Shown here: positions 35,701 to 38,700 of the stretch, one piece after another | Position numbering within the stretch: position 1 is the first letter of the stretch | Layout: each line of letters opens with the position of its first letter | From: Zeus faber | Taxonomy: Eukaryota > Chordata > Actinopteri > Zeiformes > Zeidae | Direction of reading: 5' to 3' | Assembly: GCA_960531495.1 (NCBI GenBank) | Contig: OY482847.1 | Location: forward strand, 24,479,513 to 24,543,512 | Length of the DNA stretch: 64,000 nucleotides | The notes under the pieces: generated by a model | The model's input: only the letters and a program-made list of their open reading frames with translations | Told to the model about the DNA's origin: nothing | Database searches by the model: none | Program-made: the position numbers and the translations under genes

Positions 35701-38700
35701 TGTGCGCGGTTACGACAAAGGGGAAAAAGCCGAAAAAAGCAAGAGATATGAAGACTACTGAGCCAGTAAGCCAGTGCAGTTTATTTGTTTCTTCTGTTGT
35801 TGTCGTATTGTTTGAGGTGGGGAAACAAATTAGATGCCGAGGCGACTACTCCCTCACAGGACAACGCAGCTATGCGTTCTCCCCACTGTTCCTCCTCAAA
35901 GTATTTCTACCCTCAAAAGTGGGTCGCACTCGCAAAAAAGGCTACGACCCGCTGGAATAGAGTATTAGAATAATAGAATAGAGTTTTCCACAGAGCCGCG
36001 TGATATATATTTGAACACATTCAACATCAGTTTCGCATCACCCTAACCCTGCCCCTCAAAATCAATATCACCGTGAATATTTCAAGCTATACTTCTGTAT
36101 ATCAATATTATTCCTTTAAAATTCCTTTCCGTCCCAGCGCCGGCACCCTGCCCGTCACGTTCCGCTGCCTGGAGGAGAACCTGCACATTGACAAGAGAGT
36201 CACCCGCTTCGTGCTCCCCGTGGGCGCCACCATCAACATGGACGGCACGGCGCTCTACGAGGCCGTGGCGGCCATCTTTATCGCTCAAATGAACGGCATT
36301 AACCTGGACTGGGGGCAGATTGTCACTGTGAGGTGAGGCGTTAAAGGCTAGGAATGCTGAAAATGAAAATGAAAATCTACAGTTTGAATGAGTGTTTTTT
36401 TATGTTACGTTTCCAATGCGGTACATGTTGTGCTGTGGGGGTGGTGTGGTTTAAGCAGCCATACCTGTCTCGGGTCTAGGTAATTGGGCCCGAGTTCAGC
36501 GTGGCTGTCGGCCTGTTGCTCGTCAGCGCGATCAACGCGCAACCGGTAAATCACCCATCCCCACACACACACACGGGGAGAGCCCCTGCCATGACATGTG
36601 GCCTGTTCCATCTTGCCATTCTCTACAATAAACTGGTGTGCAACATCATTGCCTGTGTCGCTGCGTCGGAGGGCCCTGAAAACACCGCTCTTGTGGCGCG
36701 TGGCAGGCGAAGCTGCCACACACATGCTTAGGTGGCTATTGATGCGTTATATCGGCCAATGTCAGATCAGGCAGCCGGTTCTCACACCGAGGTCTGAACT
36801 TTTCTCCTCTCCAGTATGACAGCAACGCTGGCCAGTGTCGGAGCGGCCAGTATCCCCAGTGCCGGACTGGTCACCATGCTGCTGATCCTCACGGCAGTGG
36901 GGCTGCCCACCCAGGACATCAGTCTGCTGGTGGCCGTCGACTGGCTGCTGTAAGTACACTGTTAGCGACAAACATGATAACGGCATGAACGCATCTCCAA
37001 TTCAAAGTCAATGAGTTTTATTATCAAATGCACAGTATAACACAGGGTCAACTACTGAGAGACCTAGCAGTCCTAGCAGGGTTCCCAAACTGGGGTCCAC
37101 AGCCCCCTATGGGTCCTAAAAGCAGGTGCGCAGCAAAATTATTTTTGTTGATAATAAATTAAATAATTAAATTTATTGTGAATAAACTATAATTGATTTT
37201 TTTTTCTTCCATTTTAATATGGAATCCATTATTTGATTTGGTTACATCAAATTGCTCATGACAATATGGTGTATAGTAATACATAACCTGTGATCTTGTC
37301 AATTAATCATACTGATTTTTTGTAGTTAATAAGTCTGTGAGTTTCTGTTTCATATCTTTCAACATATTTCCTTCCGATACGTAGGGATCGCTTCCGCACC
37401 TCTGTCAATGTGGTTGGCGACTCCTACGGCGCGGGCATCGTGTATCACCTCTCTAAGGACGAGCTGGACACCTTCGACGCCCAGCAGGCCCGAGTGGACG
37501 AGTTCGAGATGGCAAAGACACAATCCTACTATGACAATAACACCAACCAGAATGTATATGCCACTCACCACAACTCAATCTTGATAGACGACTGCAAGGT
37601 ACATTTCACGTTAACAGACATAGAGACATGTATGTAGCTGGTCCACCCCCACCCACACCTTCTTCCCCAGCCCTTTGTGTTTTGCTTGAGGTTCATTTTT
37701 GTTTTTTCTTGTTCGTGTTTGTCTTACTTTCCATGTGACTTTGTATATGTGTATATGTATATGTGAATATAATATTTTCTTTTTTCAAATTGCAAATTTG
37801 GTGAAAGGGATAAATACATATTTTGATATGTATTTACTATCACTTTCACCTATTTATCATGTGAAAAAGCAGTTTTTGTGATACAAATGTATAGTTATTG
37901 ACAGCCATTTTTCGTCTTATTTATTTGTGTACTTATATATATTTGCTTTTGAAAATATCACCTCAAGTTATTTTTACTTGCATGAAATCCCTTTGGACTT
38001 GCCTAAGGTGGTTATGTAATTTAATCATCTTTGTATGGTATCATACTTGATTTGAATATTGCTTTGATATGTCTTAATTAATTTTCTAAGAAAGTGTCTG
38101 GGGTTTTTTTAATTTGGACATGTATTTATGGCAGCCCTGACCAAATTACATTTTTAGAAGAGAGTGCTTTGCATAAAGACTGCTATTTCACTTTTTCCTC
38201 ATTTGCAATTTACTGAATATATATTGATGTCATCTCAATCATTCAACTTGTTGTCGAAGGTATGATATGAGTGTTGTAATTTCGTTGGGCAGAGAATCCA
38301 TAAAATACATGGCCAACTTAAAATAATAACTATCCAAGTTTTTATATTCTAATGTCATTGATAAAAGCACATTAAAGTTGTGTTTGAACAGTGGCCCTGT
38401 ATCAATGTGACATTTTCTCGAGAAACAAGTTTTGTTCTTCTCCTATTTCTGTTTGAAAATCGACATCATTCAGCTCTAAAATCAATGGCCTGACTATCTT
38501 GAAAGTGTTTGAAGGATATGTTTGCCAATAATCAACCCAGGCCTTATTAAAATGTTTGTTCCCATAACGTACTGTTCATAGCCCAACCTCACTGGCTTGA
38601 CTATTGAGAAACTTACCAGTCTGCTGCAAACATTTAAACCGTAAGAAAATAAATGTTAAATCAATATTGTGAGCGAGAAGCTCACTTTAGCCTTAAATGT

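Follow-up and report, generated by a model that had tools for sequence, protein, structure and literature searches.

The slc1a2 locus of the fish Zeus faber raises the question of whether the switch between two C-terminal tails of the main glutamate transporter, known from mammals, is also encoded in a fish genome, and how old such a switch might be. The mammalian b tail (HFPFMDIETCI in human EAAT2b and PFPFLDIETCI in rat GLT-1b; Table 1 of PMC5608761) binds PICK1, PSD-95 and DLG1, and DLG1 holds EAAT2b at the cell surface (PMC5608761). Confinement near synapses is stronger for the b form, whose PDZ tail sets how firmly the transporter is held there (PMC5608761; PMC4915597). The stretch analysed here, called the window, comprises 64,000 nucleotides of the Zeus faber genome. 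The reading that is favoured below, with a probability of roughly 85%, is that the last intron of slc1a2 carries, right behind its donor, 12 codons that provide an alternative 3′ end, homologous to that of mammalian GLT-1b/EAAT2b.

The slc1a2 gene of the window and its predicted read-through tail

The slc1a2 (EAAT2/GLT-1) gene lies on the + strand of the window, where its coding exons join in one open frame with GT-AG borders (Table 1). Exons are numbered by analogy with mammals, and the gene model spans exon 2 to the last exon, without exon 1. A search of the PDB with the joined coding exons, that is, all except the first, returned human EAAT2 (7xr4) as the best match (E = 2.3e-262, query residues 1-542); the EAAT1-based entry 5llu reached 3e-171, and EAAT1 and EAAT3 in general scored far below EAAT2. 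Exon 10 ends in ...NSILIDDCK at the donor AAG/GTACAT (the slash marks the border) and is followed by a last intron of 1311 nt. When this donor is used, the transporter would end in the a tail (...EEPWKRE). When it is ignored, 12 codons of intron would be translated up to a stop and the protein would end in ...TDIETCM, which is a class I PDZ ligand motif. The preliminary description of this DNA had placed a read-through tail of 12 residues ending in TDIETCM behind the donor, and translation of the window confirmed its coordinates, frame and sequence.

Table 1. Features of slc1a2 and of its last intron in the window
Feature	Position	Strand	Remark
slc1a2 coding exons 2-5	29723-29862, 30280-30432, 31490-31740, 31832-31940	+	GT-AG borders, one frame
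slc1a2 coding exons 6-10	32437-32563, 32667-32900, 36138-36332, 36815-36949, 37385-37598	+	GT-AG borders, one frame
GT of the competing donor AAG/GTACAT	37599-37600	+	intron bases of the donor are also the first two b-tail codons
b-type tail, 12 codons, with a class I PDZ ligand motif (T-C-M) at its end	37599-37634	+	intron nucleotides 1-36
Stop codon TAG of the b form	37635-37637	+	read-through frame
ATTAAA, candidate poly(A) signal for the b form	38371-38376	+	motif only; outside the repeat
Imperfect inverted repeat, fold-back, MITE-like, 319 bp	38506-38824	.	inside the last intron
AATAAA proposed earlier as the end of the b form	38648-38653	+	the last intron has no other AATAAA
Last exon, a-type tail (23 residues, ending EEPWKRE)	38910-38981	+	spliced alternative, in frame

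Because the donor begins with GT, the first residue of the b tail is forced to be V. Beyond this V, 7 of 11 residues are identical to human EAAT2b and 6 of 11 to rat GLT-1b. The resemblance to the mammalian tail pointed out in the preliminary description is therefore real, but its restriction to six almost unchanged residues was too narrow, since the identity to the human tail reaches past the last six. The probability of at least 7 matches in 11 to the human tail is 9e-8 under the base composition of the intron, and 6e-9 when a stop in codon 13 is also required. Introns shuffled base by base yielded 19,234 read-throughs that reached a stop, among which 946 had a class I PDZ ending and eight an ending of the type ET-x-hydrophobic, while a DIETC-like end occurred in none. 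It follows from these counts that the PDZ motif alone would mean little and that the weight lies with the DIETC identity.

Searches beyond the gene itself were also performed. An exact DNA pattern for TDIETCM was found at two places in the whole genome, both on the forward strand. The second place (C3:8221175; L002:1501-1521), on the same contig as the window, was rejected as a copy of slc1a2: no slc1a2 exon precedes it and it reads on as TDIETCMYGV... without a stop, for which reasons it is taken as a chance match, written in other codons. When the PDB was searched with the b tail, only the part common to the a form matched (EAAT2), and the search returned no structure that includes the b tail. 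A search with exon plus tail gave eight pattern matches among viral contigs, none of them a relative, and one bacterial locus among genome contigs, restricted to residues 1-19.

A second slc1a2 copy with the same arrangement

The genome from which the window derives (803 Mb, 153 contigs) was searched with the protein encoded by the exon plus tail, and five places were found. Two of them are slc1a2, and the other three match only the first 33-37 residues, as expected for other members of the transporter family. The second slc1a2 copy is on contig C6 (C6:15452779-15453066). There the exon ends in ...NNSVVVDECK, and read-through gives VQLMLADIETCI and a stop at the same codon as in the window, so that the two tails have equal length. 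The DIETC core with a hydrophobic last residue is present in both copies, as DIETCM in the window and as DIETCI on C6. The C6 copy also keeps its own a-type last exon (23 residues, ending EEPWKQE). Its exon lengths (140, 153, 251, 148, 127, 234, 195, 135 and 253 nt) are mirrored by those of the window copy (140, 153, 251, 109, 127, 234, 195, 135 and 214 nt), and, with the last exon left aside, 420 of 518 aligned residues are identical between the two proteins.

Exons 5 and 10 differ in length between the copies: each is 39 nt (13 residues) shorter in the window copy than on C6 (109 versus 148 nt and 214 versus 253 nt, respectively). The shortening of exon 10 trims the cytoplasmic C-terminal stretch. 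A weak donor was considered as a special trait of this exon and is of minor weight. The computed U1 pairing of the window donor, -5.6 kcal/mol, is the third weakest of the nine donors scored in the gene, which is a modest deviation, and the C6 donor AAG/GTACAA, likewise at -5.6 kcal/mol, is nothing special, with three of its nine scored donors weaker and one other tied.

Two slc1a2 copies have been described in zebrafish, where they are named eaat2a and eaat2b and ascribed to the teleost genome duplication (PMC2873418; PMC12648573). The pair formed by the window and C6 copies fits this description and may stem from that duplication. In zebrafish, the letters a and b designate two genes, not two tails, and the two genes are split between glia and cones (PMC12648573). 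With respect to gene order, a partial match to Xlink, a domain that is also found in CD44, lies about 24 kb downstream of the C6 copy on the opposite strand (C6:15479128-15479271). In the human genome CD44 is a neighbour of SLC1A2, and the match on C6 is what would be expected for it. No Xlink match was listed in or near the window, the nearest ones being on C3 at 20.58 and 27.54 Mb, and between the window and 40 kb of C6 no common neighbour was found besides slc1a2. The only other match between the window and these 40 kb is a piece near 57.8-58.0 kb of the window that looks like a repeat.

Where the retained form would end

Because the intron is the last one of the gene, the stop of the retained form is not followed by any exon junction, and this form should therefore escape nonsense-mediated decay. 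Its 3′ end would then be set either by a poly(A) site in the intron or by the normal one of the gene. The preliminary description had suggested that the AATAAA at 38648 would let this form end before the last exon. This site is unlikely to be where the b form ended ancestrally, because it is located in the loop of a repeat that occurs at many places in the genome and because the AATAAA motifs of the C6 intron lie much nearer the donor (300 and 304 nt, against 1050 nt in the window).

Counted along the 319 bp of the repeat, the AATAAA stands at position 143. The arm pairs of this repeat are 71% and 85% complementary, with a short perfect pair in addition, and the fold of 38510-38830 has a z-score of -8.0 against shuffles. 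The arms match many places in the genome, with at least 78 matches, the repeat itself included, from 40 scored of 1882 candidates. Among the matches listed, the arms (about positions 1-124 and 178-317) are found elsewhere and the centre is not: the 77 matches other than the repeat itself leave positions 125-177, the loop, uncovered. A further copy of the repeat, with a longer centre, is present in the window at 10590-11180. A site brought in by a repeat would not be the end of an ancestral isoform; the AATAAA at 38648 is probably lineage-specific, and as a motif it may be a working signal in this species today.

Other candidates were found in the intron. An ATTAAA outside the repeat (Table 1) is a putative signal for the b form, and a second ATTAAA, at 38546, is an alternative candidate, but falls within the repeat. 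In addition, the sequence ATAAATACATRTTT occurs in both last introns, at +212 from the donor in the window (37810-37823) and at +305 in C6, where it adjoins an AATAAA; in the window it adjoins a GATAAA. It might mark a common poly(A) region, with a match (E = 1.2) that is not significant.

The fact that the sole intronic AATAAA sits inside a repeat, together with a 3′ structure of the b form that has been deduced from genomic sequence only, would also fit a real tail that arises neither from a retained intron nor from a poly(A) site within it, but by another route, in which exon 10 is extended to a distal donor and joined to an exon further on. Against this route, an exon junction would then lie far past the stop and would be expected to provoke nonsense-mediated decay. 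A distal donor is thus regarded as improbable, and retention of the last intron, with or without polyadenylation inside it, is the route that is followed below.

Constraint on the DNA of the tail

The last introns of the window (1311 nt) and of C6 (2214 nt, of which 2211 were used) were compared. Their first 38 nt gave the top blastn match (E = 0.008, the next best being 0.36). Over the first 39 nt, 29 bases are identical, and the other 32 windows of 39 nt at equal offset gave between 4 and 19. Only two of 2,766,229 ungapped placements reached 29 identical bases, the tail placement included. Conservation within the tail is uneven: 18 of 21 bases are common to the two copies over the last seven codons including the stop, and the first six residues are poorly kept, with agreement only at V and L.

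The comparison was extended to mammals by means of a rat GLT-1b cloning primer (PMC4915597), which translates to VPFPFLDIETCI followed by a stop and was assumed to have the native codons. The DNA-level comparison thus comprises three sequences, the two fish copies from one genome and one rat primer. The preliminary description had proposed to look for codon-level constraint in the bases behind this donor across fishes and tetrapods, and this was done in part, with rat, the window and C6. Rat and window differ in DIETC at 4 of 15 bases; all four are silent third positions and none replaces a residue. Rat and C6 likewise show four differences, all silent. In a simulation, DIETC remained intact after four random base changes in 80 of 400,000 trials (P = 2e-4). 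In the tail as a whole (12 codons), rat and window differ at 12 bases, 8 of them in third positions. Selection on the retained form, as claimed in the preliminary description, is supported by these silent differences and by the retention of the tail in both slc1a2 copies.

The rat tail DNA starts with GTACCT straight after AAG, and GTAC is common to rat, window and C6. The earlier claim that the mammalian tail is made by the same kind of read-through gains support from this start, though on the basis of a primer and not of a mapped mammalian gene. The shared GTAC next to the donor, together with the 18 of 21 bases common to the fish copies over the last seven codons, could alternatively mean that the 39 nt have been preserved for a role at the RNA level, as a splicing regulator or as an extended donor, the protein likeness to the mammalian tail being a by-product. 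However, differences at four silent third positions in DIETC are to be expected under selection on the protein, but not for an RNA motif. Moreover, the two fish copies use the same codon at 5 of 7 tail residues compared, as is usual for their coding sequence (same codon at 247 of 420 identical residues; P = 0.51), which argues that the tail behaves as coding DNA, and conservation as an RNA element is consequently very unlikely. That the tail is a relic, so that unspliced reads in this fish would be mere unprocessed pre-mRNA, is scarcely tenable: the tail is known here from genomic DNA alone and the window copy departs from the mammalian one in its first half and at the last residue (M for I), but without use a stretch of 39 nt would be expected to decay, as did the remainder of the intron, which is no longer alignable between the copies, and both copies retain frame, length and stop.

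Protein-level selection on the b tail appears to be the simplest account of the three sequences compared, with a first half of the tail that is weakly conserved. Since the first intron bases, GTAC in all three, would serve both as donor and as codons, donor strength and tail sequence would not be free to evolve independently.

Relation to known isoforms and probable age of the switch

The fish tail shares several traits with mammalian GLT-1b/EAAT2b (also called GLT1v). It belongs to the same gene, follows the same exon border after E/D-C-K, continues for 11 residues past V, contains the DIETC core and has a class I PDZ ending; the rat tail DNA also has GTAC right after AAG. Differences are found in the last residue, which is M in the window and I on C6, and in residues 2-6, which partly differ; the fish tails are, in addition, represented by DNA. 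The a-type tail of GLT-1a/EAAT2a is the spliced alternative in both fish copies (EEPWKRE and EEPWKQE). It differs from the b tail in having no such PDZ ligand end, and both fish a tails are without the final K of human EAAT2a.

By analogy with the mammalian work, and judging here from the motif, the b tail, once transcribed and translated, would tether EAAT2 trimers to PDZ scaffolds such as PICK1, PSD-95 and DLG1. Three papers on zebrafish eaat2 were searched by terms for a C-terminal isoform, and none came to light. In PMC5467398, the terms splice, PDZ, isoform, C-terminal and C-terminus are all absent from the text; in PMC12648573, splice, PDZ and C-terminal are absent; and in PMC2873418, PDZ is absent and splice occurs twice, neither time concerning isoforms. 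Among the papers listed by the literature search, none was recognised from its title or the opening of its abstract as describing a GLT-1b-type tail in fish, subscription journals and sequence databases being outside the scope of that search. The fish b tail may well be present already among the isoforms predicted in RefSeq or Ensembl.

These results extend a known isoform, GLT-1b/EAAT2b, to fish and newly support its age and the constraint on it. What is new is the presence of the b tail in both slc1a2 copies of a fish, its codon-level signature and the correction of the poly(A) site. They suggest that the a/b switch is older than the split between fish and land vertebrates. It is somewhat favoured, on balance, that the switch was already present in the common ancestor of bony vertebrates and that both copies have retained it since the teleost duplication, instead of one taking the a tail and the other the b tail. 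If this is true, both glial-type and photoreceptor-type EAAT2 would still need a PDZ-anchored form. An ancestral tail would be some 430 million years old, and a tail of such age, kept in both fish copies, would make the PDZ-anchored form basic to glutamate clearance in vertebrates, rather than a mammalian refinement.

Other features of the window

Three further elements were detected outside slc1a2. Upstream of the gene, at 18728-19186 (+), there is a weak trypsin-like open reading frame (E = 0.0031, under the cut-off of Pfam), which may be part of PAMR1 (pamr1), a neighbour of SLC1A2 in human. A reverse transcriptase open reading frame is located at 48212-49144 (-) (PF00078, E = 7.4e-33), and a transposase remnant at 62386-62835 (+) (PF01498, HTH_Tnp_Tc3_2, E = 7e-7) falls narrowly under the cut-off.
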